Below are positions 571 to 9,645 of a stretch of DNA of 22,492 nt, one piece after another. The notes under the pieces are model-generated. The model worked only from the letters and a program-made list of their open reading frames with translations, did no database searches and was not told the DNA's origin. The translations under genes and the position numbers were made by a program. Origin of the DNA: Lysobacterales bacterium (GTDB taxonomy: Bacteria; Pseudomonadota; Gammaproteobacteria; Xanthomonadales; Rhodanobacteraceae); the NCBI GenBank assembly GCA_013298265.1, contig JAAFHE010000003.1, positions 1 to 22,492 of the forward strand. Reading direction: 5' to 3'. Position 1 is the first letter of the stretch. The number at the start of each line of letters is the position of its first letter.

Positions 571-1257
571 GTGACATCGAAACTGCGCTTTGTTCCCCGC
601 CTTGCCGCGCTCGCGCTCGCTTCGGCCGCCTGCTTTCCTTCGGGTGTCTTCGCCCAGGCCCAGGGCTCGGTGGACGTCGACATCACGCTCAACAACGGCA
701 TCACCATCCTTTACTACTACTCCTCGGTCGACGTGAATATCTCGCTGACCGACTTGTTCGGCACTCCTGCTGGCTGCGTCGCCTCGGGCGATACGCGCGC
801 CTGCGCCATCGCGCCGCTGGCTTCGGCCGTGACCGCGGTGCCGACGGCGGGTGAGCTGGTTGCCAACTTCAATATCAATCCGGCTGCCTTGTCGATCAAC
901 GCCGCGGCGGTACCGCTCGTGCTTCAGAATCTCTGGGCCGTGCGCGCCGTCGGCGGTACCGCGAACACCACGACCGTCGCAATCGCGGGCGGCTCGAGCA
1001 CCCTCAACGGCCCGTCCGGCTCAAGCATCGCGATGAGCAACTTCCGCGTGCAGTCGCCGGTGTTCGGCGCCGCCGCGGCGGTCGGCCCCGGCGCCAGCGT
1101 GCAATTCCCGGATCCGGGCCTGGTCACAGCGCGTCCGGGTGACGTTCGCATCGATCTGAACCTGACCGGTGCGACCGTGCTCGGCGACTATTCAACCACC
1201 GGCACGATCGGTTCGAACGCCGACAGCAACTTCACCCTGACCGTCACCAGCACCTGA
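571..1257 (+). CDS. putative major pilin / exported structural subunit of a chaperone-usher-like system
   Basis: A 228-residue protein. Residues 1-28 form a signal peptide (basic MTSKLRFVPR, hydrophobic core, probable cleavage after VFA). The mature part is small-residue- and beta-rich (DVDITLNNGITILYYYSSVD, then many Ala/Gly/Thr/Val) and ends with GDYSTTGTIG and FTLTVTST. That Gly-Asp-Tyr-Ser plus closing-strand pattern resembles the last strand of usher-assembled pilins. I do not recognise a named pilin family; CS1-like or archaic Csu-like pilins are only distant analogies. It is the first gene of six, and the downstream chaperone and usher-like genes support a role as the exported, possibly polymerised, subunit. 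Being first suggests high expression. The next gene is in the same reading frame, two codons past the TGA stop. Confidence 0.6.
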   Translation: MTSKLRFVPRLAALALASAACFPSGVFAQAQGSVDVDITLNNGITILYYYSSVDVNISLTDLFGTPAGCVASGDTRACAIAPLASAVTAVPTAGELVANFNINPAALSINAAAVPLVLQNLWAVRAVGGTANTTTVAIAGGSSTLNGPSGSSIAMSNFRVQSPVFGAAAAVGPGASVQFPDPGLVTARPGDVRIDLNLTGATVLGDYSTTGTIGSNADSNFTLTVTST

Positions 1258-1263
1258 CACGCC

Positions 1264-1842
1264 ATGGCCGCCTTGCTGCCAATGCTGGCCCTGGGGGCGT
1301 CCCTGATCGTGGCCGCGGCATCCCCTAACGGGATGCCGCCCGCCTCGAAGCTGGAACTCGCCAACAGCAGCACCGCAGCGGTGCTTAGCGTCAGCCAGGC
1401 CTCGATCCAGCTGGAACCCATCACCGTGCACGAATTGCTTGGCAATTCCGCACCGATGCAGCCGGCGACGCGCCTCAATGCTCATTTCGACGGCAGCACG
1501 GCGACAGCCGTAGCTGACTTGCGCCCGGCGCCGCTGGCGACGACGATTCGCCGGCGCATTCCGGCCTTGTGGCGCCTGAGCAACCCCAAAGGTGGCAGTT
1601 TGCAGGAACATGTAAAAGTCTCGATCGAAAGCATTGATGGAATACCGGGCGTGCTCAATGCAGCAGACGCCAGCAGCTTGACCGTCCCCGTCTCTGTGAA
1701 GGAGCTTGCGCCGCGCAACGTCGCCATCGGACGTGAGCAGTACGGACTGGAAGGCGACGTCATCCTGGAAATCCCCACCGCGGCGCTCGGTGATGCCACC
1801 CGCTATCGCGGGCGGCTGGTCATCCGCGTCGAAGGCTACTGA
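1264..1842 (+). CDS. small exported protein, possible minor subunit of the pilus-like system
   Basis: A 192-residue protein of unrecognised family. It begins with a hydrophobic stretch (MAALLPMLALGASLIVAAAS) that resembles a signal peptide but lacks the usual basic residues. The rest is beta-type sequence; the end, GDATRYRGRLVIRVEGY, looks like the closing strand of a pilin-type immunoglobulin-like domain. The ATG lies 6 bases after the pilin-like stop in the same frame, with no Shine-Dalgarno sequence, so translation probably depends on reinitiation from the upstream gene. By position between the pilin-like and chaperone genes, it could be a minor or initiating subunit. That is inference, and a fold search would be needed to support it. 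Confidence 0.5.
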   Translation: MAALLPMLALGASLIVAAASPNGMPPASKLELANSSTAAVLSVSQASIQLEPITVHELLGNSAPMQPATRLNAHFDGSTATAVADLRPAPLATTIRRRIPALWRLSNPKGGSLQEHVKVSIESIDGIPGVLNAADASSLTVPVSVKELAPRNVAIGREQYGLEGDVILEIPTAALGDATRYRGRLVIRVEGY

Positions 1843-1846
1843 TCCC

Positions 1847-2677
1847 ATGCATCTACTGCGGTTGATTGCCTCCCTGCTGATCCTCTTTGCCGCTTCCGTC
1901 CCCGCACTGGCCCAGGTCGGCATCAGCCCGGCCTATCACGACCTCAGCGCGACCGAAGCCGGTAAGACCCAGACCTTCCGCCTTTTCAACTACACCGACG
2001 AAGTCAAGCGCGTGCGTGTGTCGCTGGCACCATGGGACGCCGATCCGTCCAACCAGCCCCGCCTGCTGCCGCCCGGCCCGACGACGCTGGATCAGTGGGT
2101 CGTGGTCAACCCGGTCGAATTCGAAGTCAAGCCGCAGTCATCCCAGGCGGTACGCTTCAGCGTGCGCCCGGCCGCGGAACTGCCGAACGGGGAACAGCGC
2201 GTCATGTTCATCTTCGACGAAGTCAGTCCGCCCTCGCCCGACGGCAACATGCGTGCGCGCTTCCAGTTCCGCTCAGCGCTATATGTCCAGACCGGACCCA
2301 CAGCGCGCAAAGGCGACATCGAATCGCTGACCGCTTCGACCGACGGCGCCCGGGTGCGGCTGAAGAATGCGGGCAACGCCAATGTGCGCCTGATAGGTCA
2401 GTTCGCAATCTGGCAGGCCGATGCCTTTCCGGGCGTCGAGGCGACCGCACTGATTTCCGGCCTCGGTACGCCCGATGCCAAGCTTTCACGCGGACAGCTC
2501 ATCGCCAACAGTCTCCCCGGTACGCCGGTGCTGCCTGGCGAAACCCACGACATCACGTTCCCGTTCGGGCCGACGGTGCTCAAGCCGGGCCGCTACGTGC
2601 TCGACCTCAATGGCAAGCTCGGCGACGCGGTGCTCGACCGCTCGGTCGAGTTCGTCGTCGGCGCTGCGGCGCGCTGA
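1847..2677 (+). CDS. periplasmic PapD-like pilus assembly chaperone
   Basis: A 276-residue protein with a clear signal peptide (MHLLRLIASLLILFAASVPALA). The mature part has the two-domain chaperone pattern. An N-terminal Ig-like domain starts VGISPAYHDL, continues with FRLFNYTDEVKRVRVSL, and includes the F1-G1-type segment VEFEVKPQSSQAVRFSVRP, followed by GEQRVMFIFDEV, equivalent to the family's drES-x-F strand. The C-terminal domain runs from about residue 155. Such chaperones cap subunits in the periplasm and deliver them to the usher. At 276 residues it is longer than classical PapD. The ATG was chosen over the in-frame start at 1706 because only here does a signal peptide begin; the upstream stretch overlaps the preceding gene. 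It starts 4 bases after that gene and ends 3 before the usher-like gene. Confidence 0.75.
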   Translation: MHLLRLIASLLILFAASVPALAQVGISPAYHDLSATEAGKTQTFRLFNYTDEVKRVRVSLAPWDADPSNQPRLLPPGPTTLDQWVVVNPVEFEVKPQSSQAVRFSVRPAAELPNGEQRVMFIFDEVSPPSPDGNMRARFQFRSALYVQTGPTARKGDIESLTASTDGARVRLKNAGNANVRLIGQFAIWQADAFPGVEATALISGLGTPDAKLSRGQLIANSLPGTPVLPGETHDITFPFGPTVLKPGRYVLDLNGKLGDAVLDRSVEFVVGAAAR

Positions 2678-2680
2678 ATC

Positions 2681-5266
2681 GTGGCAACGCGGTTCCACTG
2701 TGCGCTGGCTCTTTCCGGGGCCATCGCGAGCCTGCTCGCCGCAGGCGCGGTGGAAGCCGCACCTGCACCGGCGCCGCGCCCGGAGTTCTCCTCCTTTGGC
2801 GCAGCGATTCCGTCGAGCACGCAGAAGCAGGTGTTGCTGGTCGTACCGATCCTCAACAAGAAAGAAGTCGACGCGAGCCTGGCCCTGTTGCGCCAGCCAG
2901 ACGGGCGCGATTTCGTGAGCGTCGATGACTTCACCCAACTCTGCGCAATCGGCAGCCGGCGCGAAGCCGACGGCAGCATCCACCTGAGCACCCCGCTTGG
3001 CGAAGCACTGCTGACGGGCGAGGTGCTGCTTGACGACAACGGCGTGACCTACGTCGACGTGGCTGCGCTGTCGACGGTTCTCGCCGCCCAGGTCGCGTTC
3101 GACCCAGGCGAGTACGCACTGCGCGTCCTACTGCCCTGGACGCCGGGTGTCGATGCCGACGGCAGGTTGCCGACGCGCGACGAGGGTCCGGTCGACATCC
3201 GCGCGCCGCGCGCCAGCCTGTCGCGTTGGCGCAGCGAAGTCATGACGGTCCAGTCCAACGGCGACCTGTCCAGCGCGGCCAACCATCGCCTGGTCGGCGC
3301 ACTCGGCCCGGGCAACTGGCGTGCGGATTTCAGTCACTATCTGACCGGTGACGACCGCGGCATCGACGTAGGTGCCCTGTCGTGGCGGCTGGATCGTGGC
3401 AATTCGCGCTACCTGATCGGACAGGAACGTGTCTTCCTGCATCCGCTGCTGCAGTCCTTCGACCTGGCCGGCGCGCAGTACGCGTGGACCAACCGGCCGG
3501 GCCAGGTATTCGATTCCAGCCTGGGCGACGCCGGCCAGCTGCTCGCCTACCAGGCGCGACCGACCAGCACGATCCGCGGCAGCGGCCCGCCCGGCGGCAC
3601 GGCGGAACTGCGCTACGCCGGCACCGTGTTCGCGCGCCAGACCATACGCCTCGACGGTCGCTACGAATTCACCGACGTTCCCGCGGCGCCGGGCGATGCG
3701 ATTCCCGTCGAAGTCGCGGTCTACGAATTCGGCGACAACGGCACGCCGCTGCGCGTGGACCACACCTATTCCCAGGCCAGCAACCTGCAGCTGCCGGCCG
3801 GCGCCCAGGCGCACTACCTCGGCGCGGGCAGCAACGGTTTTCTGCTCGATGACCCGCGTATCGGCAACGGCAGCGCGGCCTTCTACCAGTTCCGCCGCGG
3901 CCTGAGTGAACGCTTCACCGGCGACCTGATCATCCAGTCCGTCGGCGGACGCACGCAGAGCGTGATCGGCACCGCCGCCAACCTCGGCATGGCAGGTAGC
4001 TGGGCGGGCTATGTCGGCCGCGACGACAACGGCAGCGAGGCACGCCAGGTGCTCGGCGACGGCCAGCGCGGACCGTGGTTCTGGCGCGCAAACTGGCTGG
4101 AGTACGGCGCCGGCTACCAGACCGACCAGACCGTCGCCAGCCACAACCTGCGCGTCGAGGCGGGCCGCACGATCGGCACCAACCTGCGCGTCGCGCTGAT
4201 CCATGCGAACGCCAGCGTGACCGGCGCGGAGGACATCAAGTACACCTTGCCCGCCGTGAGCTGGCGCCCCACAAGGAATCTGCAGCTGTCGGCGCGACCG
4301 GAGTACGACGGCCGATATTCGTACGACGCGCAATGGGGCGTGCGCCGTGGCACGCGGCTGTCGGCGACGCGCTACGGCAACCTGAGCCAGGTCGGCGTCG
4401 ACCAGGCCTTCGGCCGGAACTCCCGTCTAGCCGTGATGGCGCAGCATGACAGCGACCGCGGCAATCGTCTCAGCGCGATCTTCCAGCGCTATCAGCCGGG
4501 GGTCTCAGGACTGGCCTGGTCGGCTGGCGTACTGCACGGCGAAGGCCGCAGCGGGTTCATCGCCGACGCCAGCATGGAGCTGCGGCCTGGCCTGAGCGCG
4601 CGCCTGCAGGCCGTGCGCGACCCGCTCGCACCGGCCAACGGCACCGTGGTCGGTCTTTCCGTGATCGCCGATTTCGCTGTGACCGGTGCCGGCCTCGCGC
4701 GCGGTGGCGCCAATCTCGGTCAGGTGCGCGACGGCGGCGTCTCCGGCCTGATCGGCCAGGGCTCACGCGCCGGCGGCATCGACCTGTCCGGCGTGCCGGT
4801 GCTTGTCGACGGCCATGTGCGTGCGCGCAGTGACGCAGACGGGCGCTTCCACGTGCCGAACCTCGCGCCCGGCGTACACCGCGTCGAACTGGACAGCGAG
4901 GGCCTGCCGATCGAGTTCAGCGTGCATGAGGCGCCACGCCGCGTCGAAGTCCGCGCCGGCAGTCTGACGCGGGTCGATTTCACGCTTGACCTGCGCCTGG
5001 GCCTGGCTGGCCAGCTACGCGCGCCCGACGGCAAGGCGCTAGGCGGGATCGACATCCACCTGGTCGACACAGGGCAGTCCATCCAGGGGCGTGCGCGCAG
5101 CAATACCTATGGCTACTACCGCATCGACGGCATCGCGCCGGGCCGCTACGAGCTGCGCGCGATGGCGCCGGACGGCCGCGTTCTGGCGCGCAAGGACGTG
5201 TTGCTCGATGATCGTTTCCTGTTCGGACAGGAACTCACCACCGCTGCACAAGGCCTATCGCCATGA
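2681..5266 (+). CDS. usher-like outer-membrane protein with carboxypeptidase-regulatory-like domains
   Basis: An 861-residue exported protein starting with GTG 3 bases after the chaperone stop. Residues 1-27 form a signal peptide. Residues about 45-150 (VLLVVPILNKKEVDASLALL, then DNGVTYVDVAALSTVL) resemble the N-terminal periplasmic domain of archaic ushers. A long alternation of amphipathic strands (about 175-290 and 390-690) fits a beta-barrel, interrupted near 290-350 by a plug-like Ig domain (STIRGSGPPGGTAELRYAG, then DGRYEFTDVPAAPGDAI). Two small Greek-key-type domains close the protein (about 703-747 and 774-827, each with a G-R/Y-F/Y-x-I/V-x-x-L/I-A-P-G motif). The role inferred is the translocation pore for subunits handed over by the chaperone. 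It lacks the classical C-terminal cysteine pair, so it is divergent, and an automatic pipeline might only call the regulatory-like domains. Confidence 0.65.
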   Translation: MATRFHCALALSGAIASLLAAGAVEAAPAPAPRPEFSSFGAAIPSSTQKQVLLVVPILNKKEVDASLALLRQPDGRDFVSVDDFTQLCAIGSRREADGSIHLSTPLGEALLTGEVLLDDNGVTYVDVAALSTVLAAQVAFDPGEYALRVLLPWTPGVDADGRLPTRDEGPVDIRAPRASLSRWRSEVMTVQSNGDLSSAANHRLVGALGPGNWRADFSHYLTGDDRGIDVGALSWRLDRGNSRYLIGQERVFLHPLLQSFDLAGAQYAWTNRPGQVFDSSLGDAGQLLAYQARPTSTIRGSGPPGGTAELRYAGTVFARQTIRLDGRYEFTDVPAAPGDAIPVEVAVYEFGDNGTPLRVDHTYSQASNLQLPAGAQAHYLGAGSNGFLLDDPRIGNGSAAFYQFRRGLSERFTGDLIIQSVGGRTQSVIGTAANLGMAGSWAGYVGRDDNGSEARQVLGDGQRGPWFWRANWLEYGAGYQTDQTVASHNLRVEAGRTIGTNLRVALIHANASVTGAEDIKYTLPAVSWRPTRNLQLSARPEYDGRYSYDAQWGVRRGTRLSATRYGNLSQVGVDQAFGRNSRLAVMAQHDSDRGNRLSAIFQRYQPGVSGLAWSAGVLHGEGRSGFIADASMELRPGLSARLQAVRDPLAPANGTVVGLSVIADFAVTGAGLARGGANLGQVRDGGVSGLIGQGSRAGGIDLSGVPVLVDGHVRARSDADGRFHVPNLAPGVHRVELDSEGLPIEFSVHEAPRRVEVRAGSLTRVDFTLDLRLGLAGQLRAPDGKALGGIDIHLVDTGQSIQGRARSNTYGYYRIDGIAPGRYELRAMAPDGRVLARKDVLLDDRFLFGQELTTAAQGLSP

Positions 5267-7179
5267 GCACTGTTTCCTATCGCGCACGTCAGCTGCTGTT
5301 GGGCCTGGTGGCGCTGACGCCACTCGCCCAAGCGCAGATTCCGGTCAACGGGGGGTTCGAGACCGGCACCATTGCAAGCTGGACCGCCGGCGGCGACACC
5401 CGCGCCGACGCGATTCGCGCGAGCTATGTCAGCGGCACGATCGTGATTCCCGAAGGCACTTGGGCCGGCGCGATTTCCAGCGGTCCGGGCGCGAGGACCA
5501 GCGGACCGCTGGATTTCGACGGCTTCGGGGGCAACAACGACTATGACCTGTCGTGGCTGGAATCGACATCGGCGGTCACCTTCAGCCCAGCCTTCGTCGC
5601 GTTCGACTGGGCATTCGCCTCCAGCGAACAGAACGAGCCCGACCAGTTCGACGACGTGATGGACCTGAAAGCCGACGGTGTGCGCATCTTTTCGCGCTCC
5701 AGCTGCAAGCTCAACGGATCAAGCTATTCGCCGCTCGCCAACGCGAGCTGCCAGAACGCGGCCGTCGTCAACAATACGATCAGCAATCCCGCCACGCTGA
5801 ACACCGTCAACCTGCGCTTCGGACCGCCGTCGTTCCAGCGTGCCTGCCTGGAGATCCCCGCGGCCACGCTCACCGACAACAGCGTGACCCTGCGCTTCAG
5901 CGTCGCCGACAGCAACGACCGCGCCGTCGACTCCACGTTGTTCATCGACGACGTGCAGATCAAGACCTCCTGCAACGAAATCGGCAGCATCGTGCAGCGC
6001 ACCGTCACCACCGGGCGCAACGTCGAACTCAAGGGCGGCACGTTCTTCTTCCGCGGCGCCAACGCGCGCCTGATCGCCAACAACTCGACCGGCGAGACCG
6101 TCGCCTTCGTCACCAGTGCCGACCTGGGCAGCAACCCCAACCTGCTCGACCAGATCTACATCTGGAACGGCACGGCATTCACCCGCGCCACCGGCTTCAA
6201 CGTGACCAGCGGCGGCGGCATCTCCGGGCTCGCCATGTCCTACCAGGACGGCGGCCGCTACCTCGCGATCGCCGCGCGCCTGACGGATACCGCGACCACG
6301 CAGATCTACCGCTACGATCGCAATACCAACACGTTCCTGACGCTGACCAGCACGCCGGCCGGCTGCGAGAACGGCACGCCGACCATCGACGGCGACGGCA
6401 ACGTCGTCGCGTTCGAATCGACCTGCAACGCGCTGACCGGTTCGGGAACAGCGAAGAAGATCGTGGTCTGGAACGGCACGACCAACAGCAGTTCGCTGTT
6501 CGGCACAACGAACAACTGCACGATGGCCGAGCCGGCGCTGACCAAAAACAACAACGGCCGCTATCTCCTCTTCAAGTCCACCTGCGTGCACACCAGCGCC
6601 AACGCCGATGCCAACTTCGAGATCTACCGCTTCGACCGCGGCGCTGCCGGCACCAACAGCGGCACCACGGCCGCCAATTTCACGCGCATCACCGACACAA
6701 CCACGAACGGCGCCGGCGGCCCGCAGACCAACAACAGCTCGGCCGTGCTCGACGGCAGCACGAACGGCACCTACGCCTATTTCCTGTCGGACGGCAACCT
6801 CACACCGAGCGCGGCGAACTTCAACACCGATTTTTCCTCGGAAATATTCCGCTACGAAGTCGGCGCCGGCACGCCGATGACCCAGCGCACGAACAGCTCC
6901 GACGACGCCTATATCGGGGTCGACGTCGAGACCGACGGCACGCTCAACTACGCCTACGAGCGCATCAGTCTGCTCAACGGCCAGTTCTCGGTGGGCCAGC
7001 GCCGCGTCAACGGCACCAGCGACATCGAGAACAACCTCGCCACCGGCCTGACCACCAACGGCGCGCGGATCGGCCGCACCAGCACCGTCATCCCGGTCGT
7101 GAACTTCATATCGGCGGAGAATTTCCTCGGCACCAATGCCGACCGGAATGCCGAGATCTGGCAGGGGAGAGTGCAATGA
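5263..7179 (+). CDS. secreted beta-sandwich plus beta-propeller protein, candidate adhesin of the pilus-like system
   Basis: A 638-residue protein with a signal peptide (cleavage after about residue 25, AQA). Residues about 27-235 form a lectin-like or anchor-type beta-sandwich: it opens NGGFETGTIASW and ends DSTLFIDDVQI, with several cysteines. Residues about 245-638 repeat a pattern of a G-x-x-V/L-A/F-F strand and an E/Q-I-Y/F/W-x-Y/W/F strand (DQIYIW, TQIYRYD, KKIVVW, FEIYRFD, SEIFRYE, AEIWQG), which fits a TolB/WD40-like propeller of about seven blades. The ATG overlaps the usher-like stop as ATGA, so translation is coupled. Its place directly after the usher-like gene, where tip adhesins often lie, suggests a surface-exposed binding role. 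Neither the ligand nor attachment to a fibre can be read from sequence. Confidence 0.6.
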   Translation: MSTVSYRARQLLLGLVALTPLAQAQIPVNGGFETGTIASWTAGGDTRADAIRASYVSGTIVIPEGTWAGAISSGPGARTSGPLDFDGFGGNNDYDLSWLESTSAVTFSPAFVAFDWAFASSEQNEPDQFDDVMDLKADGVRIFSRSSCKLNGSSYSPLANASCQNAAVVNNTISNPATLNTVNLRFGPPSFQRACLEIPAATLTDNSVTLRFSVADSNDRAVDSTLFIDDVQIKTSCNEIGSIVQRTVTTGRNVELKGGTFFFRGANARLIANNSTGETVAFVTSADLGSNPNLLDQIYIWNGTAFTRATGFNVTSGGGISGLAMSYQDGGRYLAIAARLTDTATTQIYRYDRNTNTFLTLTSTPAGCENGTPTIDGDGNVVAFESTCNALTGSGTAKKIVVWNGTTNSSSLFGTTNNCTMAEPALTKNNNGRYLLFKSTCVHTSANADANFEIYRFDRGAAGTNSGTTAANFTRITDTTTNGAGGPQTNNSSAVLDGSTNGTYAYFLSDGNLTPSAANFNTDFSSEIFRYEVGAGTPMTQRTNSSDDAYIGVDVETDGTLNYAYERISLLNGQFSVGQRRVNGTSDIENNLATGLTTNGARIGRTSTVIPVVNFISAENFLGTNADRNAEIWQGRVQ

Positions 7180-7982
7180 ACCACCGCGCCGCATCGCTGT
7201 TGCTTCTCGCGGCACTGGCCGCACCCTGCCAGGCCGGCACCAACCCGCGCGCGCAGCTGACCCAGCTCGATGGCTACGGCCATTTCGCGTCGGCCGACCC
7301 GGCGCTGTGCACCTACGCACCCATCGACGTCGACGGTGGCACGACGCTGAACCCGATTGCGGCATCGCCTTCCGCCACCGCCCTAGACGACGGCGCGGCC
7401 ACGTTCGCGCTGAGCCAGCCGTTCCGTTTCTTCGGCACGGACTACGGCACCCTGGTCGTGTCGACCAACGGCTACGTCGCCTTCGCGGCGGGCCTCGCCG
7501 AGGAAAACGGCGGCGATTTCAGCAACGACATCTATCTGCCCGCGGTACCCGACAACGCGCCTTTCGCCGCCGCGCGCCTGCTGGCCTATCACGATGAACT
7601 GAGCGGCGAAGGCGCAGGCGCCACGCTGACGCAGCAGTTCTTCGCGACCTGCCCGCGCCCGTCCGGCCTGATCGCTGACGAAGCCTGCAGCGTGGTGCGC
7701 TGGAAAAATTGGAATCGCCTCGGCGACAACCAGCCTCTGACGTTTCAGCTCGTGCTGTATCACGCCAGCCAGGCTGCAGTCGTGCAGTACACCGCGCTCG
7801 ACGCGACGGCCGGCAGTTCGGCCTGCGCCGGCCTGCAATCCGACGGTGCCGCCGACGGCGGTGCCTGGAGCTGCAACGGCACACGCACCCTGGAAACCGG
7901 TACCGCGCTGTGCCTGTTCGATCCGGCCCACCTGCCCTCGACGAGCAACGACAGCCTGTTTGCCAACGGTTTCGAGTCCTAG
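7176..7982 (+). CDS. secreted nidogen-like domain protein, last gene of the pilus-like operon
   Basis: A 268-residue exported protein with signal peptide MNHRAASLLLLAALAAPCQA. The core resembles a NIDO (nidogen-like) extracellular beta-domain: FRFFGTDYGTLVVSTNGYVA, then a section ending ACSVVRWKNWN, then LTFQLVLYHASQAAVVQY. Several cysteines suggest disulphides. The protein closes with NDSLFANGFES, a short tail also seen in variant form on the 8629-9645 protein. The ATG overlaps the previous stop as ATGA and has a good Shine-Dalgarno (GGGGAG, 7163-7168), so it belongs to the operon. It may be a second surface adhesin or a matrix component; function is not assignable from sequence. Its reading frame happens to be open far upstream, but that part is a composition artefact. 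Confidence 0.6.
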   Translation: MNHRAASLLLLAALAAPCQAGTNPRAQLTQLDGYGHFASADPALCTYAPIDVDGGTTLNPIAASPSATALDDGAATFALSQPFRFFGTDYGTLVVSTNGYVAFAAGLAEENGGDFSNDIYLPAVPDNAPFAAARLLAYHDELSGEGAGATLTQQFFATCPRPSGLIADEACSVVRWKNWNRLGDNQPLTFQLVLYHASQAAVVQYTALDATAGSSACAGLQSDGAADGGAWSCNGTRTLETGTALCLFDPAHLPSTSNDSLFANGFES

Positions 7983-8628: not shown

Positions 8629-9645
8629 ATGAAGCGGTGGGCATTCGCGCTGGCGACAGCGCTGTACGGCATTAGCGCGGGCGCGGTCGAGCAGACCGTG
8701 CAGAACGACTCCCTCGGCAACGGAGATACCGGCGTACTCGTCTATGGCTTCGCGTCCAACGAGGCGGCCGCGTCCTGGCTCACGTCCCCGTGCGCCGGCA
8801 CGCTGCGTGCGGTACAGGTGTTCTGGCGTTCGCCCAGCGGCACTCAGGCGCAGGAAATCCACGACTCGGTGACGGTCTACCGCGCCGGCACGTTTCCGAA
8901 TCCCGGTGCGCAAGCTGCCGTGGTCGACGGCCCGATCCTGAGCGACGGCGTGGTCAACGAATGGCGCTATCTCGACGAAAACAACACGATCCCGCTTGCG
9001 GTGTCGCTCGCGGCCAACGAGCAGTTCGTCGTGTCATTCCAGTTCTTGACCCCGCCGCTCACCAATTCCGGCCCCACCGTAGTGCGCGATACCAATGGCA
9101 TACAGAGCGGCCGAAACGCCTTGCTGGCCAACATCGGCGGCACCTTCATGTGGTTCGACAGCGCGGCGCTGGGCCTGACCGGCGACTGGGTGATTCGCGG
9201 CGTGGTCGACTGCCCGGTCGGACCGCAGACGGCGGATCTCGTCGTCGGCATGAACACGACTCCCCTGGCGTATACGCCGGGTGGACCACTGGTCTACACA
9301 ATCACGGTAGCCAATACCGGGCCGTCGGCGGCGGCCGCTACCGTCGTCGACATCTTCCCGACCAGCTATGCCAATGTGTCGTGGATCTGCCAGGTCACCG
9401 GCGGCGCCACCTGTACCGCCAGCGGCAACGGCAACATCACGCAGAACATCAGCCTGCCCCTGGGAGGGGTGGCGACCTATACCGTCAGCGGCACAGTCGC
9501 ACCAGGCACCACGGGCAGCCTCACGAACACCGCCACTGCCGTCGTCGGCTCGCCGGTCACCGACCCGGTCAGCGGCAACAACACGGCAACGGCGGCGCTC
9601 CAAGCGGATACGGATCGCATCTTCGACGACAATTTCGAACCCTGA
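8629..9645 (+). CDS. secreted DUF11-type repeat protein with a short C-terminal tail motif
   Basis: A 338-residue exported protein preceded by a good ribosome binding site (GGGGA, spacing 7). Residues 1-20 form the signal peptide. The N-terminal half (to about residue 195) is a beta-rich domain of unknown type with a possible disulphide (the Cys in SPCAGTLRAV and that in VVDCPVGP). Residues about 200-325 match the DUF11/CARDB-like pattern found in bacterial surface proteins: ADLVVGMNTTPLAYTPGGPL, then YTITVANTGPSAAA and TNTATAVV. The protein ends DTDRIFDDNFEP, similar to the tail SLFANGFES of the 7176-7982 protein. It is a single gene with no partners nearby; a cell-surface or secreted role is all that can be said. 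Confidence 0.75.
   Translation: MKRWAFALATALYGISAGAVEQTVQNDSLGNGDTGVLVYGFASNEAAASWLTSPCAGTLRAVQVFWRSPSGTQAQEIHDSVTVYRAGTFPNPGAQAAVVDGPILSDGVVNEWRYLDENNTIPLAVSLAANEQFVVSFQFLTPPLTNSGPTVVRDTNGIQSGRNALLANIGGTFMWFDSAALGLTGDWVIRGVVDCPVGPQTADLVVGMNTTPLAYTPGGPLVYTITVANTGPSAAAATVVDIFPTSYANVSWICQVTGGATCTASGNGNITQNISLPLGGVATYTVSGTVAPGTTGSLTNTATAVVGSPVTDPVSGNNTATAALQADTDRIFDDNFEP

Follow-up and report, generated by a model that had tools for sequence, protein, structure and literature searches.

Whether a chaperone-usher pilus machine can be recognized in a run of six genes whose usher is missed by the Pfam usher model, and what a large beta-propeller protein and a smaller cysteine-containing protein would be doing at its end, are the questions raised by a locus on contig JAAFHE010000003.1 (assembly GCA_013298265.1) of a Lysobacterales bacterium. 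The window analyzed here is the stretch from position 1 to 22,492 of this contig, which belongs to a draft genome of 833 contigs that is 87.6% complete. The six open reading frames (ORFs), g1 to g6, all lie on the plus strand and follow each other with spacings of 6, 4, 3, -4 and -4 bases, the two 4-base overlaps (g4/g5 and g5/g6) both reading ATGA. These coordinates and spacings bear out an earlier sequence-only reading, which had described six co-oriented genes separated by gaps of at most 6 bases, and the start codons match those of homologues. A promoter and terminator scan of the operon was uninformative; the six genes presumably form one transcript. Overall, we favor with moderate confidence a divergent, non-classical chaperone-usher pathway, in which g1 and g2 would make up the fiber and g5 and g6 would be accessory proteins at the cell surface.

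A predicted divergent usher and its chaperone

Searches based on sequence did not recognize g4 (2681..5266, plus strand; 861 aa) as an usher. None of its 26 family members matched the Pfam usher model PF00577 at E ≤ 1, nor did PF00577 match the g4-type usher in any of the 11 carrier genomes among the 61 genomes scanned. There was no NCBIfam match, a Protein Data Bank (PDB) search with the single sequence returned nothing, and a PDB search with the g4 profile returned mainly matches to the C-terminal domains, which is also where weak hhalign alignments were located (E about 0.003, probability about 10). Three of five weak g4-type usher matches (those in G010, G025 and G030) overlapped PF00577 ushers, while the one in G072 had no PF00577 match and G092 lay outside the PF00577-scanned set. 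Because sequence-only detection failed, the assignment of g4 rests on its predicted model and the position of its plug, to which the weak hhalign alignments and the three overlaps add.

In its predicted model g4 has an usher fold whose barrel is interrupted by a plug after strand 6, and the top 18 solved-structure matches in the fold search were all FimD or PapC, with no archaic usher structure among the matches listed. In the structural alignment with PapC, residues 178-668 (3212..4684, plus strand) were matched to PapC residues 146-636, the structure alignments leaving out the g4 N-terminal domain. As defined by the model and this alignment, the barrel region has six strand segments on the N-terminal side of the plug (residues 298-362; 3572..3766, plus strand; from model topology) and 20 on its C-terminal side, and many columns around the plug motif GPPGGxAEL are invariant in the family alignment. 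About 100 residues of folded domain precede the barrel in the model (residues 50-150 by model secondary structure; 2828..3130, plus strand); a POTRA domain was neither matched by Pfam in g4 nor seen in the model, the N-terminal domain not having been searched alone. Following the barrel, two modeled sandwich domains (about residues 685-772 and 775-854; 4733..5242, plus strand) match CarboxypepD_reg in two stretches (Pfam, E 9.4e-17) and carry no cysteine pair. This lack had been pointed out previously and extends to the family, as none of the 26 members (one of them, P0010, a partial record) has two cysteines in its last 200 residues, whereas the C-terminal pair was found in FimD (855/877), EcpC (803/823) and an archaic Psychrobacter usher (802/823), with one of each sampled. 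The closest named relative of g4 is a Tahibacter harae protein (77%). Model and fold search uphold the usher-like barrel protein of the sequence-only reading, no non-usher fold was found for g4, and the usher-type barrel with its plug supports the divergent chaperone-usher system proposed there. By its model, then, g4 is a divergent usher with a barrel, an internal plug and two C-terminal domains.

The gene beside the usher, g3 (1847..2677, plus strand; 276 aa), had been read as a PapD-like chaperone. The window copy matches PapD_N below the Pfam cut-off (E 0.0099), and the proposal is carried by its family, in which 11 of 20 members match PapD_N at E ≤ 0.1 (best 3.9e-5). Pairwise hhalign comparisons gave E values of 4.9e-8 to an archaic Psychrobacter chaperone, 5.7e-7 to EcpB and 0.28 to FimC. 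Residues P89, R118 and R181 are invariant in all 20 rows of the g3 alignment and align with EcpB Pro60, Arg89 and Arg148 (mature numbering, taken as precursor minus 20). According to the part of the source drawn on here, one proline and one arginine are common to archaic and alternative chaperones, with a further arginine in domain 2, and Arg148 of EcpB serves the subunit carboxylate (PMC4654587). The tyrosine partner (EcpB 169, CsuC 196) falls beyond the aligned g3-EcpB stretch, and no invariant tyrosine stands at the expected spacing in the g3 family. By its sequence g3 is assigned to the PapD superfamily of periplasmic chaperones and, with three invariant residues aligned to published ones, within it to the non-classical kind.

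Upstream of the chaperone, g1 (571..1257; 228 aa) and g2 (1264..1842; 192 aa), both on the plus strand, encode probably exported proteins, signal peptides of the window proteins having been read by eye. The start of g1 appears signal-peptide-like in its alignment, and both proteins show, again by eye, strands of alternating hydrophobicity close to the mature N-terminus together with a conserved last strand, a pattern that would suit pilin subunits whose incomplete Ig fold is completed by a donor strand. These patterns are what the earlier label of g1 as pilin-like rests on, and no tool confirmed it: g1 had no Pfam or PDB match, and hhalign detected no similarity either to EcpA or to an archaic pilin. 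There are 76 g1 homologues at E ≤ 0.001, one of which (P0073) is named a spore coat protein U domain protein by UniRef. A g2-profile match stands at the g2 place in all 13 loci holding this stretch, with the profile (A5) itself including rows placed by position, and comparison of the g1 and g2 profiles by hhalign showed a weak resemblance along 107 columns (pairwise E 0.001, probability 21). In four-gene operons (G031, G048, G147 and several metagenome-assembled genome (MAG) loci), g1, a gene at the g2 place, chaperone and usher are followed by a convergent gene. Since these operons hold no other fiber candidate, we infer that g1 and g2 are probably the pilin subunits, g1 the major and g2 the minor one.

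Gene order and the four-gene core

Thirteen of 14 loci keep all six genes in this order; the 14th starts inside the usher at a contig end. These loci, chosen for carrying g4 to g6, represent the window's genus, G032, G286, a Dokdonella MAG and two families of the order, f6 and f10; L026 and L027, which have no g5 or g6, and the contig-broken G156 were left out. The 4-base overlap was present between g4 and g5 in 11 of the 14 loci and between g5 and g6 in 13, both being upper counts because the start nearest to a 4-base overlap was taken. Chance falls far short of explaining such a conserved order across distant genomes. Across 398 genomes of the order, the usher was found in 15 and full-length g5 (E below 1e-90) in 12, all of them within the 15. 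In 11 of these 12 genomes g5 directly follows the usher, which in the remaining one (G156) stands at a contig end; as the genomes are related, co-occurrence in 12 of 12 is not to be read as a probability. The shared pathway had been proposed from co-location and is now backed by co-occurrence as well, though it is still something we infer.

Some genomes carry g1 to g4 only, so the system is not intrinsically a six-gene one. The core without g5 and g6 was found in three of the 15 usher genomes of the order, and also in Vreelandella, Nitrospinota and other Pseudomonadota MAGs, some with incomplete flanks (core-only loci are L043, which is G048; L049, which is G031; L045, L047 and L050; and also G147). 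As the earlier reading requires, the six genes do keep together in related genomes, but the set is not fixed at six. The core is g1, g2, chaperone and usher, and the propeller protein is an add-on, not a necessary tip.

Psychrobacter and Moraxella were considered as further carriers of the four-gene core, which was not borne out, as no gene lying between g1 and g3 was called as g2. Nine loci from these genera (L061-L069) have weak g3 and g4 matches, and eight of them also a weak g1 match. In six of the nine, a protein of 259-276 aa with a pilin-like last strand (by eye) follows the usher, a different gene filling the slot held by g5 in the window. Restriction of g5 to the window's genus was also rejected, as g5 was found beyond it. 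In a Thermoanaerobaculales MAG (L054), a g5-like propeller end (pairwise E 3.3e-5), which carries a P_proprotein domain, and a g6 relative stand ahead of g1-g2-g3-g4. G156 holds g5, g5, g6 and a cut g5 on one contig (L092, C339) and a cut g5 and g6 on another (L137, C224); the cut pieces overlap by 394 bases at 98%, giving a safe count of three g5 copies. A decayed copy of the operon was seen in G131 (L133, 4944-7305), with g1 and g2 present, one ORF joining the first part of the chaperone to the end of g5, and a broken g6; there was no usher match in this stretch.

The propeller protein, g6 and their possible roles

The model of g5 (5263..7179, plus strand; 638 aa; pLDDT 80.0) consists of a sandwich (residues 25-235) and a beta-propeller (residues 245-638), the architecture described in the sequence-only reading. 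Foldseek returned propeller matches, with TolB first (E 5.1e-10), the structure alignments leaving out the sandwich on its own. Among 36 homologues, the TolB propeller model matched 26 and choice_anch_L 20 at E ≤ 0.01, while PD40 matched 28 and CBM_4_9 13 at E ≤ 0.1; the PD40 match of the window copy is itself weak and below cut-off (E 0.083). Eight cysteine columns are conserved. No pilin domain or donor strand was recognizable at either end of g5, whose C-terminal end is the last propeller strand, and its polymerization through the usher pore is therefore unlikely.

The last gene, g6 (7176..7982, plus strand; 268 aa), encodes a probably exported protein with five cysteine columns kept in 14 of 14 rows. 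It belongs to no Pfam family, and the NIDO model matched none of 14 members at E ≤ 1; the earlier label "nidogen-like", which rested on patterns seen by eye, was accordingly not confirmed. Its C-terminal tail (7950..7979, plus strand; about D-x-[IL]-F-x-[DN]-G-F-[ED]) is possibly a sorting or processing signal. The motif is present in nine of the 10 g6-bearing loci of one comparison, L054 being without it; it is altered in L091-L093 and absent in L134. In L035 and L036 the following gene on the same strand also has a tail of the g6 type, and in the window this gene ends in a variant of it.

At E ≤ 1e-6, 76 of the 398 order genomes have the g6 domain, which also occurs outside pilus operons and frequently lies in open frames of about 1150 residues; a tie of g6 to ushers alone was rejected on these grounds. 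In L130, L131 and L132 it lies at about residues 590-840 of proteins of 1133-1165 residues, with a trypsin-like domain ahead of it in both of those scanned (L130 and L131). One g6 relative ends in an IPTL-CTERM-like motif, below the Pfam cut-off (E 0.012). In G285 and G162, g6 immediately follows a second, more distant gene of usher-like type that neighbors a chaperone; this usher-like gene was recognized by its place and a match at its C-terminal end (E 6e-11 and 1e-9). G157 and G208 gave similar hits. L134 (898-5143) and L135 (1517-5792) hold a second operon of chaperone-usher-like type, more distant, whose usher-like gene is immediately followed by g6 and for which g5 gave no match.

Matched trees of 13 loci, with groups chosen once a first tree had been seen, gave conflicting histories for the usher and the genes behind it. 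The usher tree, in which long branches meet, divides the genus into two groups, and a single clade of its seven rows is rejected (p-AU 0.0005), whereas the g5 and g6 trees unite them (100/100 and 100/99) and reject the usher grouping (p-AU 2e-10 and 0.001). This conflict strongly hints at module exchange but does not prove it. In its simplest reading, the core would have been swapped at its position and the g5-g6 module behind it retained, and the disagreement of the g4 and g5 trees speaks against a tight fit between usher and g5.

In the pathway we favor, g3 would hold g1 and g2 by donor-strand complementation and hand them to g4, with donor-strand exchange as in non-classical systems, and g4 would pass the fiber across the outer membrane. 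Stop-start coupling would allow g5 and g6 to be translated from one transcript with the core. Their products, probably exported partner proteins, would enter the periplasm, be oxidized at their conserved cysteines and reach the surface, where they would serve the same structure as accessory proteins that bind ligands or contact the matrix, without polymerizing through the usher. The same two proteins could instead act as periplasmic helpers of usher assembly or quality control, comparable to TolB or BamB and never leaving the cell. The TolB matches of g5, in Foldseek and in most of its homologues, and the overlap of g5 with the usher gene are in keeping with such a role. It fits less well with the additional choice-of-anchor L or CBM_4_9-like domain of g5 (weak for single members), with three g5 copies in G156, which would be odd for a helper, with four-gene operons that manage without g5, and with the sub-threshold IPTL-CTERM-like end of one g6 relative; we regard this alternative as unlikely, though worth keeping in mind.

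A different possibility is that g5, together with g6, is a true usher client, passing through the pore, perhaps in unfolded form, as a non-pilin tip or cap. Full-length g5 was never found without this usher in the 398 genomes, non-classical chaperones keep subunits partly unfolded, with partly folded delivery in archaic and alternative systems (PMC4654587, in the portion used here), and the non-pilin exoprotein CupB5 depends on the usher CupB3 (PMC3031594, likewise cited in part). However, neither end of g5 shows a pilin domain or donor strand, no POTRA domain was seen in the g4 model, unlike CupB3, and the tree conflict speaks against a tight fit, which together make a g5 client improbable. 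Least probable, in our estimate, is that g1 to g4 are a pilus operon and g5 and g6 unrelated genes sharing its transcription unit. The apparently different histories of core and tail and the frequent occurrence of the core without the tail would suit such passengers, but the consistent presence of the usher wherever g5 occurs, the retained overlaps, the position of g6 behind a second usher-like gene, and the g5-like and g6 relatives beside the core in another phylum argue for a connection. Portability of g5-g6 is suggested by the tree conflict, by g6 behind the second usher-like gene and by the presence of both in another phylum; more speculatively, and with a rather low likelihood, g5-g6 may be a module portable between usher subtypes, serving as non-pilin cargo or cap that the usher system itself would deliver or dock. 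If true, this would widen the clients of ushers beyond Ig-fold subunits without a POTRA domain.

Relation to known systems and neighboring genes

By predicted fold the system belongs to the chaperone-usher superfamily, and by its chaperone signature to the non-classical kind. Archaic (sigma) pili such as Csu of Acinetobacter resemble it in that g3 aligns best with the archaic chaperone of the three compared and has the proline and arginine residues conserved, and the window-type system, like archaic ones, spans several phyla (PMC9452303, in the part consulted). It differs from archaic systems in an usher that PF00577 misses and that has no C-terminal cysteine pair, in g1 and g2 without detectable pilin similarity, in the absence of a recognized two-domain tip adhesin, and in the extra g5 and g6. 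The alternative (alpha) Ecp system of E. coli shares the gene order pilin-chaperone-usher-large protein, EcpB is related to g3, and the C-terminal parts of EcpC and g4 align weakly (pairwise E 0.0032, probability 9.9). In contrast to g4, EcpC has the cysteine pair; EcpD is annotated as a fimbrial adhesin, whereas g5 is a propeller protein, and Ecp has two chaperones, as described in the consulted part of PMC4654587, compared to one here. With FimD and PapC, g4 would share the usher fold and the plug after barrel strand 6, but identity over the structural alignments is only 10-15%, and neither g3 with FimC nor g4 with FimD gave a convincing profile alignment. The CupB cluster of P. aeruginosa offers a precedent for a chaperone-usher cluster carrying a non-pilin exported protein (PMC3031594), although its usher CupB3 includes a POTRA domain and its exoprotein CupB5 is TpsA-like, and neither feature was seen here.

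No paper on such a system was seen among the open-license PMC papers listed, as judged from titles and abstract starts. The new features are the usher undetected by PF00577, the missing cysteine pair and the g5-g6 module. A pili census resting on the Pfam usher model would miss this branch, a little-noticed type of pilus machine in Tahibacter-related bacteria. With the g5/g6 module, a large non-pilin protein is linked to an usher operon, and two alternatives become testable: ushers may accept clients without an Ig fold, or pili may take on partners that are exported separately. The four-gene and six-gene versions of one machine provide a natural comparison.

Upstream of g1, tRNA-Gly and tRNA-Tyr genes lie on the opposite strand, and g6 is followed by a convergent thioesterase gene. 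Past the latter, the window encodes a probably exported protein of 338 aa with a DUF11 domain (8629-9645), and genes similar to it occupy the same place in same-genus loci.

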